Part shown: in pieces, positions 9,155 to 64,000 of the stretch
Layout of the letters: every line of letters starts with the position of its first letter
Position numbering within the stretch: the first letter of the stretch is position 1
NCBI GenBank assembly: GCA_002753565.1
Contig: PEAM01000009.1
Span: 62,001-126,000 of the forward strand
DNA length: 64,000 bases
From: Magnetococcales bacterium
Lineage (GTDB): Bacteria > Pseudomonadota > Magnetococcia > Magnetococcales > JADFYX01
Direction: 5' to 3'
Notes under the pieces: model-generated
Told to the model about the DNA's origin: nothing
Databases searched by the model: none
What the model saw: the letters and a program-made list of their open reading frames with translations, nothing else
Translations under genes and position numbers: made by a program

Positions 9155-9643
9155 ATGTTACCCATTCACGGTCGAGGCATTAGCGGTTCTACCAGCGAAC
9201 TACAGGACCGTGCCCAATTTCATGCAACGGTCAAGGAGATCCGTACCGATGGAGAGGGGCGGGTCAATCCGGTTCGGCGGGCCAAGCCCAACAGTTCGGC
9301 TGATCATGTCAAACAGGAAACCATCGATCCCCATGCCAGAGGGGACAGATCTGGTCAGCAGGGCGCCATCTCCTACGATGCCGTCGCTCAGGCACTGCAA
9401 GAAGAGGAGCATGCGCGACAGGAGAGTCGGGCGTTGGAGCAGGAGAGCCAGAAGGAGGCCATAGCCCACAATCCACCTTTGACAACCGGATTGACCTCAC
9501 CCGGCGTGATTGTCTCCCGAGGGGGGGCGAGTCGGATTGTCGCCAAGCTTTTTATTCAAGCTGCCAGCAACAGCTCATTTTCCACTCATTCCACCACCCC
9601 CTCTTCCCGAGAGTCAAACGTTCGGGTTGACGTGACCATATAG
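9155..9643 (+). CDS. Hypothetical protein, polar and charged
   Basis: A 162-residue frame starting at ATG 9155, chosen because GAGGAG precedes it at about 10 bases; an upstream Met at 9125 has no such site. The protein is hydrophilic, with a Glu/Gln/Arg-rich helix (roughly residues 90-120), then a Gly/Pro-containing stretch with a short hydrophobic piece (SRIVAKLFIQAA). There is no signal peptide or recognisable domain. Its last 19 codons overlap the 3' end of queG on the other strand by 58 bases, which is unusual and leaves the true end open. I do not recognise a family. Confidence 0.5.
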   Translation: MLPIHGRGISGSTSELQDRAQFHATVKEIRTDGEGRVNPVRRAKPNSSADHVKQETIDPHARGDRSGQQGAISYDAVAQALQEEEHARQESRALEQESQKEAIAHNPPLTTGLTSPGVIVSRGGASRIVAKLFIQAASNSSFSTHSTTPSSRESNVRVDVTI

Positions 9644-10803
9644 TTCAACGCCTCTTTGATCTCTTCCAGCACCTCTCTATCTGACTCGGTTTTTTCTGCC
9701 TCTATCAGGAGGGTTGCCACCTCAGGGTGGTCGACTCTCGCCAACCCCCAGGCGGCATGACCACGAATGAGTGGGTGGTCATCGGCAAAAAGATGGCCCA
9801 GGGCCGGCAGGGCCTTAACTGATCCCCAGTTACCCAAAGCCACCGCCAGATTGCGCATAAACCGTATCCGCCCCGACCGCTTGATAGCCGATTGGGGAAA
9901 GGTGGCTCTAAACTGGGCATCATCCAAAAAGGCAAAACACAACAGGGTAGGGGCTTTCAGGGCAGGACGGGGCAGAAAATGGGCCTCGGTGGTTTCGGGG
10001 GCAAAGCGGTTCCAGGGGCAGATGGTCAAGCAGTCGTCACAGCCAAAAACCCGATTGCCCATAGCCACCCGATAGCGGGGGGGGATGGGGCCGGAAGACT
10101 CAATGGTATAATAGGCCAGACACTGGGTGGCATCCAACTGCCAGGGTTGATCCAGCGCCCCGGTTGGGCAGGCGAGTTGACACCGATTGCAGCTGCCGCA
10201 ATGGTTGTTCGATTGGGGGTCGGCTGGTAGATTGATATCGAGAAAAAGCTCTGCCAAAAACAGCCAGCATCCTCGCTCTCTTGTCACCAGCAGGCTGTTT
10301 TTTCCTTGCCACCCCAGCCCAGCCCCGGCAGCCAGGGGCTTCTCCATAACCGGTGCCGTATCGACAAACAGACGCCCTTGAATGGGGCGACCTAGCCGCT
10401 GCTCTATCTGCCGGATCACTTTTTTCAGCTTTTTTTTGATAACCCCCTGATACGCTCTGTTTTTAGCATAGGCCGAGATCCCCAGGGCAGCCGGATCGTC
10501 CAGATAGTCGGCCGGGTTGCCAGGTGGACGGTAGTTGATCCCCAATACCATGATGGTACCCAGACCGGGCATCAGTTGGTTGGGGTTAAGCCGTTTTTCT
10601 CGGTTTTTTTCCATCCATGCCATATCCCCGTGGCAGCCGTTATCCAACCACTCCGAGAGCTTTTCTGCCCGAGGAGGTTGGCAGGGGGCGGCAAAGGCGA
10701 CCAGGTCGAACCCCTCATTCAAGGCGATTGTTCTTAATGGCTCTTTTAGTTTGGCTTCAAGATTGTTAGAATGGGGCAATTTTGTTGTCCATTTATATAT
10801 CAT
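9586..10803 (-). CDS. queG: Epoxyqueuosine reductase
   Basis: A cobalamin-dependent Fe-S enzyme performing the last step of queuosine synthesis in tRNA. Family markers are the segment FVDTAPVMEKPLAAGAGLGW followed by GKNSLLV, two ferredoxin-like cysteine motifs (CGSCNRCQLACPTGALD and FGCDDCLTICPWN), and C-terminal HEAT-like repeats (about the last 100 residues) that bind tRNA. The frame stays open to 10845, but that would overlap the divergent nadA start. Met at 10803 gives a normal N-terminal length and avoids the overlap. No strong Shine-Dalgarno decides between 10803 and 10827. The 3' end overlaps the convergent hypothetical gene. Confidence 0.92.
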   Translation of the reverse strand: MIYKWTTKLPHSNNLEAKLKEPLRTIALNEGFDLVAFAAPCQPPRAEKLSEWLDNGCHGDMAWMEKNREKRLNPNQLMPGLGTIMVLGINYRPPGNPADYLDDPAALGISAYAKNRAYQGVIKKKLKKVIRQIEQRLGRPIQGRLFVDTAPVMEKPLAAGAGLGWQGKNSLLVTRERGCWLFLAELFLDINLPADPQSNNHCGSCNRCQLACPTGALDQPWQLDATQCLAYYTIESSGPIPPRYRVAMGNRVFGCDDCLTICPWNRFAPETTEAHFLPRPALKAPTLLCFAFLDDAQFRATFPQSAIKRSGRIRFMRNLAVALGNWGSVKALPALGHLFADDHPLIRGHAAWGLARVDHPEVATLLIEAEKTESDREVLEEIKEALNYMVTSTRTFDSREEGVVE

Positions 10804-10825
10804 ATTGATGTGAGTTTTAATCTCC

Positions 10826-11923
10826 ATGACCAAACCGACGCCCATACCACTGGAACCCCTCTATGAACTCTCCGACCAAGCGTTAGAGGCGCGAATTCGC
10901 CAAGCGAAAGAGACCCTGGGTGAGAGCTGTGTCATTCTTGGCCATCACTACCAGCGGGAGGAGGTCTATCAGTTTGCCGATTTTACCGGCGACTCCCTGA
11001 AGCTGGCCCGGTTGGCCTCGCAAAAACCGGACGCCCGCTACATTCTCTTCTGCGGCGTCCACTTTATGGCGGAGGTGGCAGACATTCTCTCCTCCCCGGA
11101 GCAGATCGCCATTCTACCGGATATGGCTGCCGGCTGTTCCATGGCCGATATGGCCGATCTGCCCGCTGTCGAGTCGGCCTGGCAAGCCATCGGTAAGGTG
11201 ATCGACGTGGAGAGCATGGTGACACCGGTCACCTATGTCAACTCCATGGCTGATCTGAAAGGTTTTTGTGGTGACCATGGCGGTACGGTTTGTACCTCCT
11301 CCAATGCAGAAAAAGTACTTGCCTGGGCCTTCGAGCGCCGGGAGAAGGTACTCTTTTTTCCCGACCAACATCTAGGGCGCAACAGTGCCGCCCGAATGGG
11401 CATAAGCCTGGATGAGATGGTGCTGTGGAAACCCACCCAACCCAATGGGGGGCTGAGTGACGAGCAGATTAAAAAAGCCAAGGTCATTCTTTGGGATGGA
11501 TTTTGCTCGGTGCATCAGATGTTTCAACCTGCCCATATCGACCTGTTTCGCCAAAAAATGCCCGGTGTGCAGATTACTGTTCACCCCGAGTGCAGCTACG
11601 AGGTGTGCCAAAAGGCCGACCATCTGGGTTCAACCGAACAGATTCAGTCGGCGGTTCGTAACGCCCCCTCTGGCAGCCAGTGGGCCATCGGTACCGAGCT
11701 GAACCTGGTCAACCGTTTGAAACACGAGATGCCCGACAAGGAGATCCACTTTTTGTGCCCCACCATCTGCATGTGCTCCACCATGTTCCGCATCGATACT
11801 CAGCATCTCTGTTGGGCCTTGGAAAATTTGGTGGCAGGCCATGTAGTCAACCCCATTTCGGTTCCGCCAGCGGTGGCTGCTTCGGCCAAAAAAGCGCTGG
11901 ACCGGATGTTGTCGGTGTTGTAA
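10826..11923 (+). CDS. nadA: Quinolinate synthase A
   Basis: A 365-residue [4Fe-4S] enzyme that condenses iminoaspartate with dihydroxyacetone phosphate to give quinolinate for NAD synthesis. The three-fold repeat fold is recognisable from ILGHHYQREEVYQFADFTGD, from the ILPDMAAGCSMADM motif carrying the first cluster cysteine, from TVHPECSYEVC, and from the C-terminal FLCPTICMCSTMFRID. The length matches the family. nadB and nadC are not adjacent. The gene is followed after 4 bases by an HD-domain hydrolase, so they are probably cotranscribed. Confidence 0.95.
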   Translation: MTKPTPIPLEPLYELSDQALEARIRQAKETLGESCVILGHHYQREEVYQFADFTGDSLKLARLASQKPDARYILFCGVHFMAEVADILSSPEQIAILPDMAAGCSMADMADLPAVESAWQAIGKVIDVESMVTPVTYVNSMADLKGFCGDHGGTVCTSSNAEKVLAWAFERREKVLFFPDQHLGRNSAARMGISLDEMVLWKPTQPNGGLSDEQIKKAKVILWDGFCSVHQMFQPAHIDLFRQKMPGVQITVHPECSYEVCQKADHLGSTEQIQSAVRNAPSGSQWAIGTELNLVNRLKHEMPDKEIHFLCPTICMCSTMFRIDTQHLCWALENLVAGHVVNPISVPPAVAASAKKALDRMLSVL

Positions 11924-50326: not shown

Positions 50327-51832
50327 ATGAGCCAATTGATTCCAGAGCAACTTTTCATCCTAGAGATGGCCAACAACCATATGGGAAGTGTTGAGCATGG
50401 TCTGCATGTGATTCGTACCTTTGCCGAAGTGTGCAAGCCCTTCCCTTTTCGGTTTGCCTTTAAAATGCAGTATAGACAACTGGACACCTTCATCCATCCC
50501 GACTACCGGGATAGGATGGATATTAAATATATCAAACGCTTCTCCGAAACCAGCCTCAGCCGGGAAGATACCCGCCGACTGGCCGATGAGATCAAAGCCC
50601 AGGGTTTTCTCGCCATCTGCACCCCCTTCGACCAGGACTCGGTAGCGTGTATTCTGGAGGATGGTTTTGATGTACTTAAAATTGCCAGCTGCTCCTTTAC
50701 CGACTGGCCCCTGTTGGAACGCATCGGCGCCTGTGATCTGCCGGTAATTGGCTCCACGGCTGGTATCGATAGGGAAAACATGGATAACGTCGTCAGCTTC
50801 ATGAAACATCGGGAGAAGGAGTTTGTCCTGATGCACTGTGTGGCGGAATATCCCACCCCCAATGAAAACCTGCAGCTCAACCAGATCGACTTTCTTAAAC
50901 AGCGCTATCCCGGTTTACGCATCGGCTACTCCACCCACGAGGAGCCATCCGAAACCGCAGCCGTCGGCATTGCCATCGGCAAAGGGTGTTCGCTTTTCGA
51001 GCGGCATGTTGCGGTGCCAACCGAGGTCCATGGCATCAACGGCTACTCCTCCACACCCGAGCAGGTTCGGGCCTGGCTGGAGGCGGCTCAAAAAGGCTAT
51101 GCGCTCTGTGGTCAGACCGAGGGTCGCATCGAGCCAACCCAAAAAGAGCGCGATAGCCTGATCTCCCTACGCCGAGGGGTGTTTGCCAAAAAGAAGATTG
51201 CCGCCGGTGATCGCATCCAAGATAGCGATGTCTTTATGGCCATTCCCACCCAAGAGCACCATGTCACAGCCAACGATTGGTCTAAATACAACCATTTTTA
51301 TGCCAGCCGAACCCTGCAGGCCGGAGAGCCGATTTTAACCACCAACACCCGCAGCGAGCAGGTGAGACAGCGGGTTTATGCAATTGCCCAACAGGTTAAA
51401 CAGCTCCTGAAAAAAGGCAACGTCATCCTTCCAGGAGAGGCCCAACTGGAGGTTTCCCACCACTACGGTATCGATCAGTTCGAATCCTTTGGCATCAGCA
51501 TGATTACTGTCGTCAACCGGAGATATTGCAAAAAGCTCATTGTGGTTCTGCCCGGTCAATCCCATCCAGAGCAGTACCACAAGCAAAAAGAGGAGACCTT
51601 TCATATTCTCCATGGTGTGTTGAACATCGCCTTGGATGGAGAGAGTAAAGAGCGTGGTCCCGGCAGTGTCATCACCATTGAGCCGGGGGTTAGACATGCT
51701 TTCGACAGTCAGGAGGGGTGTGTTTTTGAGGAAATCTCCTCCACCCACTATACCGACGACTCCTTCTATACCGATCCGGCAATAAGCCAAAACCCCAGCC
51801 GCAAAACCTTCATCTCCTTCTGGCTCTCCTGA
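50327..51832 (+). CDS. NeuB-family sugar-acid synthase with SAF and cupin domains
   Basis: A 501-residue three-domain protein. Residues 1-270 form the NeuB TIM barrel that condenses phosphoenolpyruvate with a sugar: FILEMANNHMGSVEHGLHVI at the start, KIASCSFTDWPLLERI, GSTAGIDRENM, MHCVAEYPTPNENLQLNQI and IGYSTHEEPS. Residues about 280-345 are an SAF/antifreeze-like domain (RRGVFAKKKIAAGDRI). Residues about 370-495 are a cupin-like domain with KQKEETFHILHGVLNIALDG and EPGVRHAF. The cupin is not part of ordinary NeuB, LegI or PseI. It may isomerise or epimerise the acceptor sugar. It opens the plus-strand glycan genes. Confidence 0.85.
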   Translation: MSQLIPEQLFILEMANNHMGSVEHGLHVIRTFAEVCKPFPFRFAFKMQYRQLDTFIHPDYRDRMDIKYIKRFSETSLSREDTRRLADEIKAQGFLAICTPFDQDSVACILEDGFDVLKIASCSFTDWPLLERIGACDLPVIGSTAGIDRENMDNVVSFMKHREKEFVLMHCVAEYPTPNENLQLNQIDFLKQRYPGLRIGYSTHEEPSETAAVGIAIGKGCSLFERHVAVPTEVHGINGYSSTPEQVRAWLEAAQKGYALCGQTEGRIEPTQKERDSLISLRRGVFAKKKIAAGDRIQDSDVFMAIPTQEHHVTANDWSKYNHFYASRTLQAGEPILTTNTRSEQVRQRVYAIAQQVKQLLKKGNVILPGEAQLEVSHHYGIDQFESFGISMITVVNRRYCKKLIVVLPGQSHPEQYHKQKEETFHILHGVLNIALDGESKERGPGSVITIEPGVRHAFDSQEGCVFEEISSTHYTDDSFYTDPAISQNPSRKTFISFWLS

Positions 51833-51933
51833 TGGGTGAGGGGGTTGAATTTTTCAACTTTACTAACGGCAGACCAGCCTGGTAACACAGCTCTTCTCCC
51901 TTTTTTTTGTCAGTCAAGGAGTGCCGCTTCACC

Positions 51934-53769
51934 ATGAAAAAAACGATCCGGGTTGCCGACTATATTTTTGAATTTGTAGCCAAACAGGGGGTAGACTCCG
52001 TTTTTATGGTTCCGGGAGGCGGGGCCATGTATCTGGTCGATGCTCTGGGTCAAAATCCCGACTTAACCTTCATTCCCAACCATCACGAACAGGCCTCTGC
52101 CATTGCTGCTGAAGCCTATGCACGCATCAATGGTCGCTTGGGCGTAGCATTGGTGACAACCGGCCCCGGGGCCACCAACGCTATTACCGGTGTAGCCGGG
52201 GGATGGATTGAGTCGGTTCCCATGCTCATCCTCTCCGGGCAGGTCAAGCGGGATGATATGATGGGGGAGAGCGGTGTACGTCAAAAAGGGCCTCAGGAGG
52301 TTGATATCATCTCTCTGGTGACCTCCATCACCAAATATGCGGTTACCATCATGGAGCCGACCTCCATTCGCTATCATCTGGAAAAAGCCATGACCCTGGC
52401 CTCTAGCGGGCGTCGGGGTCCGGTCTGGATCGATGTTCCACTGGATATCCAGGCCAGCCAGATAGACCCGACCCAACTCAAAGGTTTTGAAGGGTATGGC
52501 AATAAGCCCACCACCCCTGAAAATCAACTGGCAGACCAGGCTAAAGAGACCCTGGCCTTTATTCAACAGGCCAAACGCCCCTTGATTCTTGCCGGCCATG
52601 GTGTTCGGTTGGCCGAGGCGGCAGAAACTTTTCGTCAACTCTATGAGACCCTCCGCATTCCGGTTGTTACCACCTGGAACGCCATGGACCTGATCCCCTA
52701 CGACCACCCTCTCTGTATTGGTCGGCCAGGAACGGTTGCTCTTCGTGGGCCTAATTTTGCGGTACAAAACAGCGATCTTCTTATCTCCATCGGTGCACGG
52801 CTGGATAATGTGGTGACGGCATTCAACCCGGCTGGGTTTGGTCGAGAAGCCAAAAAAGTGGTGGTGGATGTGGACCCTCATGAGCTGGCCAAACTCAACA
52901 TGCCCATGGCGCAAACCATCCAGGCCGATGCCCGAGACTATATCCAGGCCCTGCTGGATGAGAGTGCAGAAACAAGCTTTCCACCAAGAGAAAATTGGCT
53001 GGCACGATGTGCTAACTGGAAAAAGCGCTATCCAGTTGCCGACGGGCAGGTTTTTCCGCCATCTGGGGAGATCAGCCACTACCATTTTGTTAAAGTTCTC
53101 TCAGAGGAGATCCCGGAGGATAGTTTGATTGTCACCGGTAGTTCTGGTTTGGCAATCGAGGTGTTTTACGCCACTTTTGGCAACAAGGCCGGGCAGCGGA
53201 TTTTTCTTACCTCTGGTTTGGGTGCCATGGGCTATGGTGTGCCAGCCTTGATTGGCGGCGGGGTGGCCTACAAAGGTCGCTCTTTAATTGGTATTGAGAG
53301 TGACGGTAGTTTGCAGATGAACCTGCAGGAGTTGCAAACCTTGAAGGCCCAAAACCTTCCTGCCCATCTTTTTATCATCAACAACAACGGCTACGCCTCC
53401 ATCCGCAATACTCAGCGCAACTATTTTGAGGGGCGCCATGTGGGAACGGGGCCGGAGGCGGGTCTCTATCTGGCTGATCCAGCTCAGGTCGCCAAGGCCA
53501 TGGGAATTGAGTCGGTTACCCTAACCGATGCCAGCCAGCTGTATGACACCATCCGCACTGTTCTCGCCCATCCCGGACCGATCCTCTGCAACGTCCAGGT
53601 GGTTGCCGACGAAGCCCTCTGGCCTAAATCTGCCGCCATCCCCCAACCGGACGGCTCCATGGTCTCCATGCCTTTGGAGGATATGTCTCCTCTTCTCTCT
53701 CGGGAGGAGCTGCGGGAAAACATGTTGATTCCACTGGCAGCAGAGTCAGAAAATCTAAAAATGGAGTAG
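51934..53769 (+). CDS. Thiamine-diphosphate enzyme, acetolactate-synthase-like
   Basis: About 611 residues from ATG 51934; an upstream start at 51907 is possible. It has three domains: PYR with VPGGGAMYLVDALG and the catalytic Glu52 in HHEQASAIAAEAYAR, the central Rossmann domain, and the PP domain with IESDGSLQMN and LFIINNNGYASI for Mg/ThDP binding. It is too diverged and too isolated from ilvC/ilvN to be the biosynthetic acetolactate synthase. In glycan loci such enzymes attach a two-carbon unit from pyruvate to a ketosugar (YerE in yersiniose synthesis). rfbFGH, which make the YerE acceptor, lie 8 kb away in this cluster. That link is inference. Confidence 0.85.
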   Translation: MKKTIRVADYIFEFVAKQGVDSVFMVPGGGAMYLVDALGQNPDLTFIPNHHEQASAIAAEAYARINGRLGVALVTTGPGATNAITGVAGGWIESVPMLILSGQVKRDDMMGESGVRQKGPQEVDIISLVTSITKYAVTIMEPTSIRYHLEKAMTLASSGRRGPVWIDVPLDIQASQIDPTQLKGFEGYGNKPTTPENQLADQAKETLAFIQQAKRPLILAGHGVRLAEAAETFRQLYETLRIPVVTTWNAMDLIPYDHPLCIGRPGTVALRGPNFAVQNSDLLISIGARLDNVVTAFNPAGFGREAKKVVVDVDPHELAKLNMPMAQTIQADARDYIQALLDESAETSFPPRENWLARCANWKKRYPVADGQVFPPSGEISHYHFVKVLSEEIPEDSLIVTGSSGLAIEVFYATFGNKAGQRIFLTSGLGAMGYGVPALIGGGVAYKGRSLIGIESDGSLQMNLQELQTLKAQNLPAHLFIINNNGYASIRNTQRNYFEGRHVGTGPEAGLYLADPAQVAKAMGIESVTLTDASQLYDTIRTVLAHPGPILCNVQVVADEALWPKSAAIPQPDGSMVSMPLEDMSPLLSREELRENMLIPLAAESENLKME

Positions 53770-55356: not shown

Positions 55357-56484
55357 GTGAATGCCGTTAAGGATGTTGCCGATCAAAACCAGGAAAGCAG
55401 TACCAACGAAACCAACAAACGCAATCAACTCAGACTGGAAAAACCTCGTGTTTACGAAAAGGTGATCCAATACGAAGAGAAGGTGAAGCGGGGTGAAAGT
55501 ATCGCCATTCTTCAGTTTCAGTATGATTATACCTGCAATTTTCACTGTGAACACTGCTCTGCAGACAATTTCATGATTAAAAAACGTTCCGATCGGGAGG
55601 CCGACGAGCGACGTTTTTTTAATCTGGATGATGTTCGAGAACTCTCCCGACAAGGGGATGAGATGGGGCTGGCCCATATTGTCATTACCGGGGGAGAGCC
55701 CCTGGTCTATCCCGATTTTGATCAGGTGGTCGAGGCCATCGACCCCTCTAAATGGTATATCAGTTCCGACTCTAACGGCTGGCACCTGGATAAAGCCCGT
55801 GCCAAACACCTTAAAGCCATTGGTGTCGATAAAATTCAGTTGAGCCTGGATAGCTTCCGCCGGGAAGAGCACGATAAATTTCGCCAGAAAGAGGGCTCTT
55901 ATGATCGGATTCTACGGGCAGTTGATGCCTGTCAGGAGGCGGGTTTAAATCTTATCTTTCAAACCGTCATCTGGAAAGAGCGGTGCAAATCCCAGGAGTT
56001 TATCGACTATCTGGAGTATGCCAAAAGCAAAGGGGTTGGTACCTATGTTACCTTTGCCAAGCCGGTTGGAGCCTGGGAGGGGCGCATGGAGGTGTTGTGT
56101 GGGGATGAGGAGTGGAACTATGTTCACGATCTGGCCAAAGAGTACGATGTCTTCACCCACCTGACACCCGGTTATGGTATTGATATCGGTTGTATTGCTG
56201 TTAAGAGAATGGTCTCTGTGACCAAATATGGCGATATCATGCCCTGTCCCTATACCCACACCTCCTTAGGTAATTTTTTTGAAGAGCCGCTGGAGAAAAT
56301 CATCAATCGGGGGCTCTCTCTTAAATCCTTCTCCTACGGGCAGAAACATCTCTGCCTGGTTGGTAATAAGGATGACCCCTTCATCGAAGCCAAAATGCAC
56401 CGCATGTATGGTAAGCCGGTTCCGGTTCCCATGAACGAGGTGTTCGACGATGAAGATTTTGTCACCGGCAAGCCTTTCGATTGA
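55357..56484 (+). CDS. Radical SAM enzyme of the glycan cluster
   Basis: A 375-residue radical SAM protein from GTG 55357, with AAGGAG upstream. The [4Fe-4S]/SAM motif is Cys60-x3-Cys64-x2-Cys67 (YTCNFHCEHCSADN). The GGE motif is VITGGEPLVYPDF. A C-terminal region with further Cys (DIGCIAVKRM, MPCPYTHTSLGN, HLCLVG) resembles a SPASM/Twitch-type auxiliary-cluster segment. The reaction is unknown. In sugar loci such enzymes perform deamination, dehydrogenation or epimerisation. It is divergent from the epimerase-HAD gene and convergent with the C-methyltransferase. Confidence 0.85.
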   Translation: MNAVKDVADQNQESSTNETNKRNQLRLEKPRVYEKVIQYEEKVKRGESIAILQFQYDYTCNFHCEHCSADNFMIKKRSDREADERRFFNLDDVRELSRQGDEMGLAHIVITGGEPLVYPDFDQVVEAIDPSKWYISSDSNGWHLDKARAKHLKAIGVDKIQLSLDSFRREEHDKFRQKEGSYDRILRAVDACQEAGLNLIFQTVIWKERCKSQEFIDYLEYAKSKGVGTYVTFAKPVGAWEGRMEVLCGDEEWNYVHDLAKEYDVFTHLTPGYGIDIGCIAVKRMVSVTKYGDIMPCPYTHTSLGNFFEEPLEKIINRGLSLKSFSYGQKHLCLVGNKDDPFIEAKMHRMYGKPVPVPMNEVFDDEDFVTGKPFD

Positions 56485-56522: not shown

Positions 56523-57668
56523 CTAGACGATTTCCAGGCCGGAGTCTCGTAGAATCGCCACGCTCAGCTTGGGGTCATACTGGCTGCGGATGATCCGGGC
56601 CACCTCGTCGGAATAGCTGGCAGCCATCACCAACACCCCGTCAACGGGGTCTGTTTTCAGGTGGGCGGGTGGTACGATGGGCAGGTGGCTTGCTGGGGTG
56701 AATTTTCCCTGCTTGAAAGGGGCGGAGTCCACCACATAATCAACCCGGCTCTGTAGACCAAGCAGGCTGATCACCGCTAAAGCCTGATGTCCTGCCCCCC
56801 AGATGGCTACCCGCTGCCCCTTGAGGGTGTCCAGATAGTGGTGAATCTCCCGATCTATCTTCGCCTGAAAGTCCACCAGAGCAGAGAGATCTGCCGGGGC
56901 GCGTTTTCTTACCGTTGCCGAGAGAATATAGTCATGCCAGGTTTCGGTACACTCAACCACCTCGAAACCAGAAAGAGCAAGCAGTTGGCTCAGGCTCTCC
57001 CGGTTGAAATAGAAGAGATGATCGTTGATAAATTCTGAGAAGAGGCGATTGCGCAGAATCATATCAAAATTGGGCACTTCCACCAAACCAACCGCCCCCT
57101 CAGACAGATTGTTGGCAACCCCTCTCAAGGTCTCATGAGGTTGGGGGAGATGCTCCAAAAAATTAAGGATGAAAAAAGCCTGAAAAGGGGCTGACGCCAG
57201 TTGATGGTCAGCGGTCTCTATAAACCCCTGACAGACCCGTTGCTGGATGCTTTGGCAGTGGCTGACCGACTCGGCACCATACTCCAGGCCGTGGGCCTCC
57301 ATCCCCGATTGGTTGAGCAAGGTAAGGTACTCCCCCCGACCACACCCTACCTCCAACACTTTTTGACCGATCAATCCAAACCGTTTGGCAAACCCGGTAA
57401 ACTGGGCAAGCCGGTAGTCGCCCATCTCTGGAGAGTAGGCCGCCGCCCGAACCACCTCTCGATAATAGGCAACCGGAAGGGTGTCAAGCTGGATGAGACC
57501 ACAGGCCGAACAGTGGCAGACCCGCAGATCGGTGCCCACATCCTGGGAGAGGGTCGATGCATCGGGCATAAACTGGGCGGCATTGGGCATGTTGTGCAGT
57601 TGGAGCAGGGGTTGACTAAAAAAAAGGCCACCACAAACCCGACACCGACTGACTCTCTCCATTTCCAT
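56523..57668 (-). CDS. NovU/TylCIII-type sugar C-methyltransferase
   Basis: 381 residues from ATG 57668; frames upstream are less likely. An N-terminal zinc site (Cys9, Cys12, Cys53, Cys56) precedes the SAM-binding core (VLEVGCGRGEYLTLL, about 104-118) with NFLEHLPQPHETL. The C-terminal Rossmann-like domain (about 285-381, RVAIWGAGHQALAVI) is the PF08484 tail found in C-methyltransferases acting on 4-keto-deoxysugars. It should methylate carbon 3 or a similar position of an NDP-ketosugar. Its Zn and tail modules recur in the B12-type radical SAM enzyme nearby. Confidence 0.88.
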   Translation of the reverse strand: MEMERVSRCRVCGGLFFSQPLLQLHNMPNAAQFMPDASTLSQDVGTDLRVCHCSACGLIQLDTLPVAYYREVVRAAAYSPEMGDYRLAQFTGFAKRFGLIGQKVLEVGCGRGEYLTLLNQSGMEAHGLEYGAESVSHCQSIQQRVCQGFIETADHQLASAPFQAFFILNFLEHLPQPHETLRGVANNLSEGAVGLVEVPNFDMILRNRLFSEFINDHLFYFNRESLSQLLALSGFEVVECTETWHDYILSATVRKRAPADLSALVDFQAKIDREIHHYLDTLKGQRVAIWGAGHQALAVISLLGLQSRVDYVVDSAPFKQGKFTPASHLPIVPPAHLKTDPVDGVLVMAASYSDEVARIIRSQYDPKLSVAILRDSGLEIV

Positions 57669-57748
57669 CAGAACCCCTCTTATTTGTGTCAATAGACTGC
57701 TATAGACAGAGGCAAAACCAAATGGGGACAACGGTTAAAGGCAAAACC

Positions 57749-57984
57749 TTGGGAGGCCTTGCAGGCCCCCAAACCCCCACGCTTTTTACGGTAAAAACAT
57801 AATAAAAGGCAAAGGCAAAACTTAAGGCAAAGGCAAAACCTTGGGAGGCCTTGCAGGCCCCCAAACCCCCACGCTTTTTACGGTAAAAACATAATAAAAG
57901 GCAAAGGCAAAACCTTGGGAGGCCTTGCAGGCCCCCAAACCCCCACGCTTTTTACGGTAAAAACATAATAAAAGGCAAAGGCTT
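57749..57984. repeat. Three tandem copies of a 74-base repeat
   Basis: The unit starts TTGGGAGGCCTTGCAGGCCC and continues with CCCAAACCCCCACGC, a TTTTTACGGTAAAAAC palindrome and AATAAAAGGCAAAGGCAAAA. Copies start at 57749, 57841 and 57915 and are nearly identical; an extra 18 bases separate the first two. Each unit contains two short palindromes (GGCCTTGCAGGCC and TTTTTACGGTAAAAA). The array fills most of the gap 57669-58088. No gene is present there. Confidence 0.85.
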
Positions 57985-58075
57985 AGGACCTTGGGCGCTG
58001 CCCAAACCCGCTGGGAAGGCATTCATGCCTTCCCAGACCCATCCGCCATGGTTTGGTACACATTTGGTTTGGAAT
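57915..58075 (-). repeat. Dispersed intergenic repeat, copy 2
   Basis: This is the reverse-complement counterpart of 40401-40562. Its last tandem unit is continuous with the CTTGGGCGCTGCCCAAACCC segment and the perfect 11-base hairpin TGGGAAGGCAT/ATGCCTTCCCA (58012-58035). The end is GGTTTGGAAT at 58066-58075. So the element seen once after rnfE has its distal part expanded three-fold here. Confidence 0.7.
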
Positions 58076-58088
58076 TCTCACCCTTTCC

Positions 58089-59930
58089 CTAGGATTCCGA
58101 GAGCAGACTACAGACATCAACCACCTCTTTTACCCCCGGATAGTTGCTTTTAATCTGTCCTGATATTTCGTTGAAAAAGGGCGGAATCATGATGATGACC
58201 GCCTCAATATTCTCTTTGGCAATCAGGGAGGGGTGAGAGATGGTTTTGTCGTGGAGAATCATTTTTCTTTTGGTGGAGGAGATGTCCACAAAGTCGATCC
58301 GTTCATCTTGAAGGGCAGGGGCCTTTTTTACCGTGTTGACGGTCTGGAAATTGATGCCCCAAACAGCAATACGACGATGCTTTTCCAGCAAACTTTTTAC
58401 CTGTTTGTTGATATTGTCATAGAGGTTGTCGGGCAGAATAAAGTTGAACCGCTGACCACACGCCTCGCAGGAGATAAAACTGGCTGCAAAGGTTTTCAGG
58501 TTGGACCACTCTCCCGCTTCACCACAGACGGCACACTGCCCGGAGACCTTAATGCGACTGGTGGTAAAGTTGATATCCAGAATCTGCATGTCCACAAGGG
58601 TTTTCAACTGGGTCAAGGGGGCCTCCAGAATCACCTTCAGAAGCTCGGAATACTCCTCGTCATTAAGCTTGGAGACGTTGACCTGCGGACACCCCTCTTT
58701 TAAATAGGCAACCCGATCCGGGATGATTCCCTCCTTGCAAGCGTGTTCATAGAGGTAAGTGCCAGGATAGATGGAGATGAGGTTGAGGGAGATTTTATAT
58801 TCAGGGTGTTCCCGCCACCAACGAATGGTATTGCTGGCAGTCTCCCAGGTCTCGGCAATATCGCCAAAAATAAAAGAGCCCTCCATGGAGATTCCCGACT
58901 TGTAGATAATCTTCAAGGCGTTTTCAATCTCTTCTATGGTGGTTCTCTTTTTCATGCTTGTTAAAATGGTATTATCCGCACTCTCCAACCCCAGACCCAA
59001 CACACTGCAACCGGCACTTTTTAGCAGGGTCAACAGCTCTTCAGAGACATTATTAACCCGAAACTGTACCCACCATTTAATGTTGTATTGGCTGATTCCG
59101 GCACAAAATTTTCTAACCCGACGAATGTTGGTAGAGAAGAGTTCATCGGCCAAGCAGAGAAAATCGATGTTGTATTTGGAGATCATGTACTCCAGTTCAG
59201 CAAAAAAATCCTCCATTTTTCTCTGGCGATATTTTTGACCGGTGGTATGAAAACAGAAGGTACACTCATAAGGACAGGAGCGGCTGGCGACCATGAAAAC
59301 CGTGTTGGTGCGGTTCATCCCCGAGATGCCAGGGGCGGAGGCCAGATATTTTTCCAGCTCAAAACCGTCATAATCCGGCCAGGGCAGGGTGTTCAGATCC
59401 TTAACCTCCTCCCGAACCGCCGTAGTCTGATATTTTTCTTGATCAACCTTATAAATAACACCGTTAACCGCCGACACATCGCCGCCACGCTCCAGACAGT
59501 CGCACAGCTCACAGATGGTCAACTCTCCCTCACCAACCACCCCATAGTCGCCAAACTCAATCGCCGTCATGGCCACATGGGGGTCACTGGTAATAATTCC
59601 ACCCCCTAAAATGGTGACAATGTTTTCATCCACCTTTTTAGCAGCCTCGACAATGGAACGGATGGAGTTATATTGAAAAGAGAGACCTCCCGTTGCCACG
59701 ACGGTAATTTGGTGGCGCTGGATCTCATCGGCAATGATCTCATCGACACGGCCATCCCGATGGTTGAGGTTGAGGGTGTAGACCTCATGACCGGCCGCTT
59801 TGAGGCTGGAGGAGACATAGAGAATACCCAGGGGGAAAAAATAGCCATCCCCCGCCCGCTGTACCGTTCGGGGCATGACCAACAAATGGCGGTTTTTCTT
59901 CACTGACTCAGACATCCTCTTCTCCCTCAC
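58089..59930 (-). CDS. Radical SAM enzyme with B12-binding-type domain, Zn-ribbon and Rossmann tail
   Basis: A 613-residue protein. Residues about 15-150 form a cobalamin-binding-like Rossmann domain (FFPLGILYVSSSLKAAGHEV, VTILGGGIITSDP) that lacks the DxHxxG His ligand. The radical SAM core (about 205-420) has Cys219, Cys223 and Cys226 (SRSCPYECTFCFHTTG). After about 460 comes a four-Cys zinc-ribbon (Cys466, Cys469, Cys488, Cys491) and then a Rossmann-like tail (518-610, RRIAVWGINFQ) resembling the tail of the neighbouring C-methyltransferase. The reaction is unknown; radical methylation of a sugar is one possibility. GTG 59930 or ATG 59915 may be the start. It lies 15 bases after the GT2 gene. 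Confidence 0.85.
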   Translation of the reverse strand: MREKRMSESVKKNRHLLVMPRTVQRAGDGYFFPLGILYVSSSLKAAGHEVYTLNLNHRDGRVDEIIADEIQRHQITVVATGGLSFQYNSIRSIVEAAKKVDENIVTILGGGIITSDPHVAMTAIEFGDYGVVGEGELTICELCDCLERGGDVSAVNGVIYKVDQEKYQTTAVREEVKDLNTLPWPDYDGFELEKYLASAPGISGMNRTNTVFMVASRSCPYECTFCFHTTGQKYRQRKMEDFFAELEYMISKYNIDFLCLADELFSTNIRRVRKFCAGISQYNIKWWVQFRVNNVSEELLTLLKSAGCSVLGLGLESADNTILTSMKKRTTIEEIENALKIIYKSGISMEGSFIFGDIAETWETASNTIRWWREHPEYKISLNLISIYPGTYLYEHACKEGIIPDRVAYLKEGCPQVNVSKLNDEEYSELLKVILEAPLTQLKTLVDMQILDINFTTSRIKVSGQCAVCGEAGEWSNLKTFAASFISCEACGQRFNFILPDNLYDNINKQVKSLLEKHRRIAVWGINFQTVNTVKKAPALQDERIDFVDISSTKRKMILHDKTISHPSLIAKENIEAVIIMIPPFFNEISGQIKSNYPGVKEVVDVCSLLSES

Positions 59931-59945
59931 TTTCCTCTTGATCCA

Positions 59946-60902
59946 TTAGTCGTTTGTTCTGTTCTCATCAAAATTGATCCGTTCCATCTCCACCACCAGC
60001 GGTCGATTCATAACCCGAACATGGATGCTGCCGATATATTCTAATATTACCCCTAAAAGGGTCAAGATGATGCCATTGATAAAAAAGAGCCCAATGACAA
60101 TGGGTGCCAGACCCAACTGAAAGCTCTCCCAGGCATAGAGCTTGAAAATCAGATAACCAAAGGCGACCAGAAAGCTGACGGCGGCCAGAAAAAAACCGAT
60201 GAAGGTGACAATACGCAACGGCGCACGAGAGTAGCTGGTTATACCGTTGATGGCGACATCGTAGAGGGAGAAAAAATTGTTTTTGGAGATCCCTCGACGG
60301 CGAGCCTGCTGGTGAAACTCCACCCTGGCCTGGCGCATGCCAACCTCTGCCAGCATCCCTCTGAAATAGGGGTAGGGATCGTCAAATTTTCTAATGATAT
60401 CAATGACTCGACGATCAAAAAGGCTGGCGCCATTAAAATTTTTAACCAGCTCAACGTCAGAAACACGGGCCGCGATCGAATAATAGAGCTTACGGGTAAA
60501 GGACATGATGGCCGAGTCGTTGGACCCTTTTCGAATCCCCATGACAACCTCATTTCCCTCTTCCCATTTGGCGATCAATTGGGGGATCAGCTCGGGTGGT
60601 TCCTGAAAATCGGCTGCCTGGGTAATAATGGCATCGCCGGTGGCCTGTAGAACACCATAGTGATGGGAGCGGGTGGTGCCAAAATTGCGGGCATTGATAA
60701 TCACCTTGATGGTGGGATCATCGGCGGCCATTTTTTTTAGAATGGCAATGGTGTTGTCGGTGGAGCAGTTATCGATATAGAGCAGCTCTAAATGGTAGTT
60801 GAGGGTGGAAAAAATCTCTTTTATCTTGTCTCGCAGCGCCTCAACATTCTCCTCCTCATTAAAGCAGGGAACCACCACGCTGACTGTTTTTCGTTTTTCC
60901 AT
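59946..60902 (-). CDS. Family 2 glycosyltransferase, DPM1/GtrB-like
   Basis: A 318-residue protein: a GT-A domain at about 1-235 (SVVVPCFNEEENVEAL at the start, the metal and donor region ITQAADFQEPPELIP, then VMGIRKGSND) and two C-terminal membrane helices (about 237-262 and 270-295). This architecture makes polyprenyl-phosphate-linked sugars from NDP-sugars at the inner face of the membrane, as GtrB and ArnC do. The divergent GtrA-like gene would flip the product, so the pair probably feeds a periplasmic glycosyltransferase. It precedes the B12-type radical SAM gene on the same strand. Confidence 0.9.
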   Translation of the reverse strand: MEKRKTVSVVVPCFNEEENVEALRDKIKEIFSTLNYHLELLYIDNCSTDNTIAILKKMAADDPTIKVIINARNFGTTRSHHYGVLQATGDAIITQAADFQEPPELIPQLIAKWEEGNEVVMGIRKGSNDSAIMSFTRKLYYSIAARVSDVELVKNFNGASLFDRRVIDIIRKFDDPYPYFRGMLAEVGMRQARVEFHQQARRRGISKNNFFSLYDVAINGITSYSRAPLRIVTFIGFFLAAVSFLVAFGYLIFKLYAWESFQLGLAPIVIGLFFINGIILTLLGVILEYIGSIHVRVMNRPLVVEMERINFDENRTND

Positions 60903-60971: not shown

Positions 60972-61442
60972 GTGTCAACGCTCACTTTTGTTTGGAAAAC
61001 TTACCCATTGGAAACAGACCTGAACACCCTCTGGACCCGACACAGACAGTTTGTCACCTATCTGATTGGCGGAGCCTATAACACCCTGTTCGGCTTTGTT
61101 TTTTTTGCCGTCGTCCACCACTATTTTTCCCCCACCATTCACTATACCATCCTGGCAGCCCTGAGCAACATTGCCGCCATTACCAACGCTTTTGTGGTTT
61201 ATCGGCTCTTTGTGTTCAAGTCCAAGGGTAACATGTTAAAAGAGTATCTGCGCTTTTACGTGGTTTATGGGGTGAACTTCTTGGTCTCCCTGACAATTAT
61301 GGTTGCCTTGGTTGAACTGCTGGGCATGCACCCGGTGGTGACACAGGGCATCATCTTGATATTTACCGTATTGATCAGCTATTTTGGCCATCGACACTAT
61401 TCGTTCCAAAAAGAGGAAAAATCCCCTCAAAACAGCCCCTAA
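60972..61442 (+). CDS. GtrA-family membrane protein (polyprenyl-sugar flippase)
   Basis: A 156-residue protein from GTG 60972, with four hydrophobic segments between about 28 and 145. FVTYLIGGAYNTLFGFVFFA and the C-terminal GHRHYSF (as in SYFGHRHYSFQ) are typical of GtrA (PF04138). GtrA proteins are thought to translocate undecaprenyl-phosphate-linked sugars. It is divergent from the GT2 gene, its expected functional partner, and converges on rfbH. The first 15 residues before the family region are not conserved, so a later start is possible. Confidence 0.85.
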   Translation: MSTLTFVWKTYPLETDLNTLWTRHRQFVTYLIGGAYNTLFGFVFFAVVHHYFSPTIHYTILAALSNIAAITNAFVVYRLFVFKSKGNMLKEYLRFYVVYGVNFLVSLTIMVALVELLGMHPVVTQGIILIFTVLISYFGHRHYSFQKEEKSPQNSP

Positions 61443-61459: not shown

Positions 61460-62788
61460 TCATGCTGAGTTGAAAAACCGGTGAAAAGTCTCGCCAACAA
61501 AGCGTAACATGGCCTTATCCAGGCCGGGATAGGTGCCAATCCAAAAGGTTTGGTTCATCACCAGGTCGGTCTTCTCCAAGCCACCACTTACCCGATAGGG
61601 CAACCCCTTAAAATAGGGTTGACGAATGACATTGCCAGAGAAGAGCAGTCGGGTACCGATGTGGTGATCATCCAGATATTTTAACAACGCCTGACGGGTG
61701 AAGGGAGCGGACTCTCGCAGGGTGAGGGGGTAGCCAAACCAGGAGGGGTCACTCTGGGGGGTTGGCTCGGGGAGAATCAGATAGGGTTCCAGCCCTTTGA
61801 GTTGTTGGGTCAAAAAGGAGAAATTGTCTTTTCTGGCCTGGGTAAACCCCTCCAGCCTATCCATCTGAGCCAAGGCGACAGCGGCCTGCATGTCGGTTAT
61901 TTTCAGGTTATACCCCAGGTGAGAATAGGTATATTTATGGTCGTAGCCGTGGGGTAGATCTCCCAGTTGCAAGTCAAACCGTTTGCCGCAGGTGTTATCC
62001 ACCCCCGGATGACAGTGGCAATCCCGCCCCCAATCTCGAAAAGAGGTAACGATCCGGCGCAGAGAGGCCGATTGGGTAAAAACCGCGCCCCCTTCCCCCA
62101 TGGTGATGTGGTGCGCCGGAAAAAAGCTTAACGTGGCAATATCGCCAAAAGTACCTACCAACTCCCCTTTATAGCGTGATCCCAAGGCATCGCAACAGTC
62201 CTCTACCACCCAAAGATCGTGTTGACGAGCAAATGCCATCACAGCATCCAGATCGAATGGATTACCCAGAGTGTGGGCAATCATGATGGCTCGGGTTCGG
62301 GGTGAGAGAGCCGCTTTGAGTCGTGATACATCGATATTGTAGCTGGGCAGCTCGATATCGACAAAAACCGGTACCATACCATTGTTGAGAATGGGATTGA
62401 CGGTAGTGGGAAAACAGGCTGCAACGGTGATGACCTCATCACCGGGCTTCAAGGCCCGCTCCCCCAGTGTTGGCGAGGTGAGGGCGGTAAAGGCCAGCAG
62501 ATTGGCAGAAGAGCCAGAGTTGGTGGTAAGTAGATGCTTGACACCCAGATACGCTGCCAACCGTTTTTCGAAGGCTTCATTAAAACGGCCCGTGGTCAGC
62601 CAACCATCCAGGGAGGCCTCAACCAGATGTTGCAGTTCCGGTGCGCCAATCACCTTGCCGGAAGGGGGAACCTTGGAGAGCCCCGGTTCAAACGGCTGAT
62701 CGGCAAAGGCCAGTTGGGCATAGCGAGAGACCAGTTGTAAAATCTGTTCTTTGATCTGATTCTTATCCAAAACCGTTGACCTATCCAT
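61460..62788 (-). CDS. rfbH: CDP-4-keto-6-deoxyglucose 3-dehydrase (E1)
   Basis: A 442-residue member of the DegT/DnrJ/EryC1/StrS family that uses PMP and a [2Fe-2S] cluster to remove the 3-hydroxyl of CDP-4-keto-6-deoxyglucose. The PLP lysine is replaced by His ([13 protein letters not shown], His226). Cysteines fit the E1 cluster pattern C-x57-C-x1-C-x7-C exactly (Cys199, Cys257, Cys259, Cys267). Both features separate it from ordinary sugar aminotransferases. It follows rfbG by 16 bases in the rfbFGH operon. The E3 reductase that reduces its cluster is not visible here. Confidence 0.94.
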
Positions 62789-62804: not shown

Positions 62805-63872
62805 TCAGGATGCCCTGTAGTGATTAATCTGTGCCACCGAAAAGGCTCTCATATCCGCGCCGTCGGTAAATGCCCGATGCCAGGAGATGGTGGCCAACAG
62901 CCCTTGTTGAATATCCCATCGGGTCTGCCAGCCGATCAGGGATCTGGCTTTGGAGCAGTCCAACTTCAGATAGTGGGCCTCGTGGGGGTGATCCCCCGAT
63001 TGTACCTGCCATTCTGCTCCGGTTCCCCAGAGTTTGACCATGGATTCGACTATTTTACCCACCGGGATGGCATCCTCCTCTCGCGGACCAAAATTCCACC
63101 CCCCTGCATACGTTATCCCATCCTCCCAGAGTTTTTCAGCCAGAAGAAGATAGCCACTCAAGGGTTCCAGCACATGTTGCCAGGGACGAATGGCGTTGGG
63201 GTTGCGAATCTCCACCGGTCTGCCCTCTTCAAACCCATGAATAATATCCGGGATGAGCCGATCCTCTGCCCAATCGCCGCCACCAATCACATTACCCGCC
63301 CGAACAGAGGCCAAAGCTACCGTTGAACGGTTTTGCCCAGCCAGTTGAAAAAAAGAGTGGCGATAGGCCGAGGTAATCAGCTCCGCACACCCTTTGCTGC
63401 TGCTGTAAGGATCGTGTCCCCCCATGGGGTCGCTCTCCCGATAGCCCCAAAGCCACTCTCTGTTCTCATAACATTTGTCCGATGTCACCGAGATGACAAC
63501 CCGGACACTCTCCACCTGTCGAACAGCCTCGAGAAGATTCACCGTTCCCATGACGTTGGTTCGATAGGTCTCCACCGGATCTCGATAGGAGCGACGGACC
63601 AGGGGTTGGGCCGCCAGATGAAAAACAATGTCCGGGGCCTGTTCCATCAGAGCCGATCTCAAGGCCTCACCATCACCTACATCGGCCTCATGGGAGAGCA
63701 GCCCCTCCTGAAGGTTGGCAGCCTTAAAAAAGCTGGGGGTTGTGGGAGGAGCCAAGGCATAACCCACCACATGGGCACCATACTCCATCAACCACAGAGC
63801 CAGCCACCCCCCCTTGAAACCGGTGTGTCCGGTGATGAAAACCCGCTTATTGCGCCAGAATTCAGGGTTCAT
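62805..63872 (-). CDS. rfbG: CDP-glucose 4,6-dehydratase
   Basis: A 355-residue short-chain dehydratase from ATG 63872. It has the NAD loop [54 protein letters not shown], the active-site YSSSKGCAE (YxxxK), and [16 protein letters not shown]. It converts CDP-glucose to CDP-4-keto-6-deoxyglucose, the substrate of RfbH. The start overlaps the rfbF stop by 4 bases (ATGA), which rejects the longer upstream frame. Confidence 0.95.
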
Positions 63873-64000
63873 TGCCACACTTTCCAGGGAGCCGTGCCCT
63901 TTTCCCACAGATTGTTCAGGTAGTGTTTGTCCCGCATGGTATCCATAGGCCGCCAAAACCCTTCATGATGAAAAGCAGAGAGCTGATTTTTTGCCACCAG
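63869..64000 (-). CDS. rfbF: Glucose-1-phosphate cytidylyltransferase, C-terminal end (partial)
   Basis: The last 43 codons of a minus-strand gene that enters from beyond the right edge. They read LSAFHHEGFWRPMDTMRDKH and end [12 protein letters not shown]. This is the conserved RfbF C-terminus: HEGFW, MDT-RDK and the APWK-W ending are diagnostic. It makes CDP-glucose for RfbG, whose ATG overlaps this stop. Confidence 0.9.
   Translation of the reverse strand: MVAKNQLSAFHHEGFWRPMDTMRDKHYLNNLWEKGTAPWKVWQ

Follow-up and report, generated by a model that had tools for sequence, protein, structure and literature searches.

A radical S-adenosylmethionine (SAM) enzyme of the cobalamin-dependent type, encoded in a 64,000-nucleotide stretch of Magnetococcales bacterium DNA (contig PEAM01000009.1, positions 62,001 to 126,000; the window), appears to end in the same kind of Rossmann-like domain as ketosugar C-methyltransferases. 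The protein, P0001, has 613 amino acids and is encoded on the minus strand (58089..59930), with homologues at 44-60% identity. Nearby, on the same strand, lies the gene for a sugar C-methyltransferase, P0002 (56523..57731). Both open reading frames (ORFs) had been reported at these positions from the DNA letters alone, in what we refer to as the sequence-only reading, and were confirmed. We consider the architecture of P0001 real and informative: comparison of sequence profiles gives good support to a tail in common with the methyltransferase and none to a common zinc ribbon, and the reaction proposed below is a hypothesis.

The domains of P0001 place it clearly. Its B12-binding domain (residues 29-142; 59505..59846, minus strand; Pfam PF02310, E 6.5e-18) and its radical SAM core (residues 215-371; 58818..59288, minus strand; PF04055, E 1.4e-14) both score above the Pfam cut-offs, and the three cysteines of the core CxxxCxxC motif (C219, C223 and C226) are invariant across the family. 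The core structure resembles those of TsrM, CysS, TokK and OxsB (structural matches with E 1e-17 to 1e-22), and the best PDB sequence match, also good structurally, is the aminosugar-bound AprD4. By its domains, invariant cysteines and structural matches, P0001 is a cobalamin-dependent radical SAM enzyme, predicted from the domains to bind cobalamin and a [4Fe-4S] cluster. It reaches the cut-off of no named NCBIfam model, the top scorers being BchE (148 bits against a cut-off of 481), PhpK (138 against 600) and HpnJ (137 against 578). The gene starts with GTG, and an ATG lies five codons downstream. An N-L-N-H-x-x-G stretch in the B12-binding domain (residues ~52-60) is invariant among close family members; it is near the classical DxHxxG cobalamin motif and not identical to it.

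The tail occupies approximately residues 501-613 (58092..58430, minus strand) and includes the pair Asp549-x4-Lys554. Scanned directly with Pfam, six tails showed no PF08484, even at E 10; the likeness therefore needed testing by profiles. Searching PDB sequences with the tail returned chance matches only. Compared by hhalign, the tail family matched the C-terminal domain of short-type methyltransferases with a probability of 95.3% (E 2.2e-8 over 101 columns), while control domains from the same loci (SDR, B12, SAM-core and family 2 glycosyltransferase (GT2) domains) reached 0.1-0.6%. The match to the canonical PF08484 set alone was 29% (E 6e-4), and the short-type and canonical sets match one another at 98.9%. 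The tail/methyltransferase comparison scored 51.1, against a top score of 22.0 in 300 column shuffles. Reciprocal hidden Markov model (HMM) searches of 5,131 ORFs agreed, the methyltransferase C-domain model finding the window tail at 1.4e-6 and the tail model finding the methyltransferases at 8e-7. A six-frame search of 48 whole genomes with an HMM of ribbon plus tail gave, besides radical SAM proteins, three sites (E 5e-6, 1e-5 and 0.004), all coinciding with PF08484 matches of NovU-type methyltransferases. When tails and methyltransferases are aligned jointly, they have in common a Gly after beta-1 and the Asp-x4-Lys after beta-2, with the Lys present in 31 of 31 sequences, and the order of secondary-structure elements predicted in the tail model fits a Rossmann-like domain. 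Homology of the tail to the C-terminal PF08484 domain of ketosugar C-methyltransferases is thus well supported, as the sequence-only reading had surmised from motif spacing in these two proteins.

The same cannot be said of the ribbon. Directly before the tail, P0001 has four cysteines in the arrangement CxxC-x18-CxxC (C466-C491; 58458..58535, minus strand), invariant in six homologues. The methyltransferase has a PF08421-type zinc domain (residues 30-83; 57483..57644, minus strand) that scores E 8.4e-6 in Pfam, below the cut-off (26.3 of 31.3 bits). Compared by hhalign, ribbon and zinc domain gave 2.7-5.2%, which is no match. They also differ in place and spacing: the zinc domain lies at the N terminus and its Cys groups are ~40 residues apart, whereas those of the ribbon, just before the tail, are 18 apart. 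We therefore reject a zinc ribbon common to the two proteins and regard these, on profile, spacing and position, as two different zinc-ribbon-like elements. The idea that both enzymes carry the same substrate-handling modules survives for the PF08484-like Rossmann domain and fails for the zinc module.

The searches returned five full-length homologues of P0001: two at 57-60% identity (L007 and L008), two at 46% (L009 and L021) and one at 44% on a Gammaproteobacteria contig (L006). Related radical SAM proteins from the same phylum have retained the core and, mostly, a ribbon, and end in TPR-like or other tails. A plasmid-borne relative from a Deltaproteobacterium (P0003) has 35% identity over 97% of the query and a diverged tail that matches at 54% by hhalign. 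Nothing relevant on a B12 radical SAM protein with a PF08484-like tail turned up in the literature, in searches whose coverage mostly stopped short of subscription journals. The architecture had been proposed as new; it is real, but it is not unique in joining these domains, because PF08484-like domains are also paired with radical SAM proteins at three other loci. A 611-residue B12 radical SAM protein (L181:2413-4245, on G027:C14) has such a domain at its N terminus, just below the Pfam cut-off (3.2e-4), with hhalign probabilities of 86% against the P0001-type tail and 89% against canonical PF08484. The genome, 1.5 Mb in size, belongs to the same phylum, and the gene adjoins a probable glycosyltransferase gene. 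Another radical SAM protein (L070:1917-3146) likewise has the domain N-terminally and just below the cut-off (2.5e-4). At the third locus, the tail domain forms a protein of its own, 129 residues long (L074:9194-9583, on G002:C5), whose gene lies immediately upstream of that for another B12 radical SAM protein (9605-11254), an arrangement that would suit action in trans.

Several similar-looking candidates did not belong. Five relatives of P0001 (L018, L019, L020, L024 and L025) have a four-Cys ribbon with longer spacing, followed by another type of Rossmann-like tail; these tails matched that of P0001 at 0.1% and gave just a weak match to canonical PF08484 (32%, E 5e-4). The C-terminal stretch of an Azospirillum protein (P0004), Rossmann-like by eye, matched neither profile set. 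A scan of viral contigs with the tail gave no match; on these contigs, L080 is a partial relative whose tail is of another kind, and all other relatives are core-level only.

Genomic context shows that the constant neighbor of the radical SAM enzyme is a polyprenyl-phosphate glycosyltransferase, not the methyltransferase. A GT2 gene of GtrB/ArnC type adjoins the radical SAM gene in 5 of 5 loci (the window, L069, L070, L071 and L006, where it is convergent), and a C-methyltransferase is nearby in only 2 of the 5 loci with close full-length radical SAM homologues. In the window, the GT2 gene (59946..60902, minus strand; PDB 5eke, E 1.4e-52) encodes a protein closest to GtrB sll0501 and ArnC. One locus (L070:4204-7983, on G109:C43) has two tailed radical SAM paralogues in tandem behind one GT2, with 58% and 46% identity to P0001. 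Other B12 radical SAM genes adjoin the same GT2 type in two genomes (G097 and G105).

Distribution was counted over one order, represented by 48 genomes. In eight of them (G000, G002, G109, G117, G169, G041, G097 and G010), the methyltransferase, a thiamine diphosphate (ThDP) enzyme encoded in the window and the GT2 all have close orthologues. The tailed radical SAM protein occurs in four, all within these eight, and looks like an accessory step of the methyltransferase/ThDP/GT2 pathway. One genome (G002) encodes the ThDP enzyme, GT2, radical SAM protein, GtrA and methyltransferase in that order on one strand. This operon and the nested phyletic pattern support a common pathway for the radical SAM enzyme and the methyltransferase.

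Much of that pathway can be read from the window. The methyltransferase P0002, with a likely ATG start at 57668, has PF08421-, PF13489- and PF08484-type domains, the last at residues 286-379 (56595..56876, minus strand; E 6.4e-16), and its closest PDB relatives are a sugar 3-C-methyltransferase, TcaB9 and a mycarose 3-C-methyltransferase. Beyond the GT2 gene lie genes for a GtrA-like membrane protein, a putative flippase (60972..61442, plus strand; PF04138), an RfbH-type 3-dehydrase (61460..62788, minus strand; NCBIfam NF011936, above cut-off) and the cytidine diphosphate (CDP)-glucose 4,6-dehydratase RfbG (62805..63956, minus strand; TIGR02622, above cut-off). The ThDP enzyme (51907..53769, plus strand) has its best PDB match in 8rph (E 3e-115, versus E 3e-76 for acetolactate synthase) and is probably YerE-like. 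A doubly branched 3,6-dideoxysugar would be a reasonable product, because YerE enzymes put acyl branches on the keto-deoxysugars of lipopolysaccharide (PMC12247030).

The cluster also encodes an SDR-HAD protein and a radical SAM/SPASM protein. The latter (55357-56484) is 86-88% identical to its counterparts in three congeneric genomes, far above the ~61-77% of its neighbors. A NeuB-SAF-cupin fusion is encoded at 50327-51832; close homologues of it at ~71% adjoin TPR-tailed members of the B12 radical SAM family of P0001 in two genomes (G169 and G117; L156 and L165).

So, what might P0001 do? Our tentative preference, held at a little short of even confidence, is that it modifies a nucleotide sugar, probably by C-methylation, before transfer to a lipid carrier. 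In this scheme P0001 would be a radical SAM enzyme, dependent on cobalamin, in a surface-glycan pathway, and its C-terminal Rossmann domain would probably bind an activated deoxysugar by the nucleotide diphosphate. PF08484 contacts the nucleotide sugar in TcaB9 and KijD1. The core of P0001, with its radical SAM and B12 domains, would abstract hydrogen from an unactivated sugar carbon, on which a methyl group from methylcobalamin would most likely then be placed. The modified sugar would pass to the adjacent GtrB-like GT2 to be loaded on polyprenyl phosphate, and the GtrA-like protein would flip the lipid-linked sugar outward. The nucleotide-sugar substrate, the C-methylation and the order of steps are all things that we infer. 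Radical C-methylation of a nucleoside diphosphate (NDP)-sugar seems reasonable because methylases prevail among cobalamin radical SAM enzymes, a class made up mostly of presumed methylases (PMC13142503). A fuller version of this scheme is possible and, to our minds, somewhat doubtful: P0001 may C-methylate nucleotide-linked deoxysugars by B12 radical chemistry, having its substrate-handling Rossmann domain in common with classical ketosugar C-methyltransferases, which would let a single pathway methylate both activated and unactivated sugar carbons.

Several observations weigh against methylation of a nucleotide sugar. In 2 of the 4 genomes of the order with the tailed protein (G109 and G117), the radical SAM gene and its GT2 partner are on a different contig from the CDP-sugar genes. 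The nested phyletic pattern has a chance probability of 3.6e-4 only with related genomes treated as independent. Foldseek with the tail model, which was built from two sequences (pLDDT 72), gave no significant PDB match, TcaB9 and KijD1 ranking 22 and 24 with E ~0.1. Two of the closest named models, BchE and HpnJ, represent enzymes that are not methylases (PMC13142503).

The chief rival places P0001 after the glycosyltransferase, acting on a polyprenyl-phosphate-linked sugar as HpnJ acts on the lipid-linked sugar placed by HpnI. The linkage found most consistently is to a GtrB-type GT2, and B12 radical SAM genes without the P0001-type tail also adjoin such GT2 genes (L178 and L182). HpnJ ranks with the closest models, and its pathway, HpnI-HpnK-HpnJ, offers a precedent (PMC12583986). 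For a lipid-linked substrate, however, a tail related to a domain of nucleotide-sugar enzymes would be superfluous, and we think this order of events rather unlikely. Alternatively, P0001 could act on the nucleotide sugar without methylating it, rearranging, oxidizing or dehydrating it in the manner of OxsB, BchE or AprD4. The high placement of the BchE and HpnJ models in the NCBIfam scores is consistent with this, as are the sequence and structural matches to the aminosugar-bound AprD4, but AprD4 is shorter and lacks both ribbon and tail; we judge such chemistry distinctly unlikely. Finally, the tail could be a dimerization or protein-contact module, its likeness to PF08484 then being uninformative about the substrate. 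Tails do seem exchangeable, as relatives keep core and ribbon with TPR-like or other tails, and a stand-alone tail protein is encoded beside another B12 radical SAM gene (L074). Conservation of Asp-x4-Lys across tails and methyltransferases argues against a mere contact role, as does a distribution nested within a sugar pathway, and we consider it improbable.

Few cobalamin radical SAM enzymes have an established substrate. Substrate assignment is a standing problem for this group, which has more than 80,000 predicted sequences (PMC13142503). The sugar-methyltransferase-like tail of P0001, together with a sugar pathway that can largely be written out, makes one such assignment directly testable. 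PF08484-like domains on or beside radical SAM proteins could mark radical enzymes that act on activated sugars; if so, their recurrent pairing would mark a wider class of nucleotide-sugar-editing radical enzymes.

Among known systems, P0001 has the B12-binding domain and radical SAM core in common with TsrM, CysS, TokK and OxsB, and with BchE, HpnJ and PhpK, and differs from them in its C-terminal ribbon and PF08484-like tail. AprD4, the radical SAM diol dehydratase of apramycin biosynthesis, is its best PDB sequence match and acts on a sugar, but has 457 amino acids and neither ribbon nor tail. AprD4 is not known to use cobalamin. HpnJ, working with HpnI toward the hopanoid cyclitol ether, is likewise a B12 radical SAM enzyme paired with a glycosyltransferase, and it acts on a sugar (PMC12583986). 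The partner of P0001, however, is a GtrB-type polyprenyl-phosphate GT2, P0001 has the extra tail, and its score against the HpnJ model is far under the cut-off. C-methyltransferases of the NovU, TcaB9, KijD1 and TylC3 type have the homologous C-terminal Rossmann-like domain with its Asp-x4-Lys, whereas P0001 lacks both their SAM-methyltransferase core and their PF08421 zinc domain and has a different ribbon of its own.

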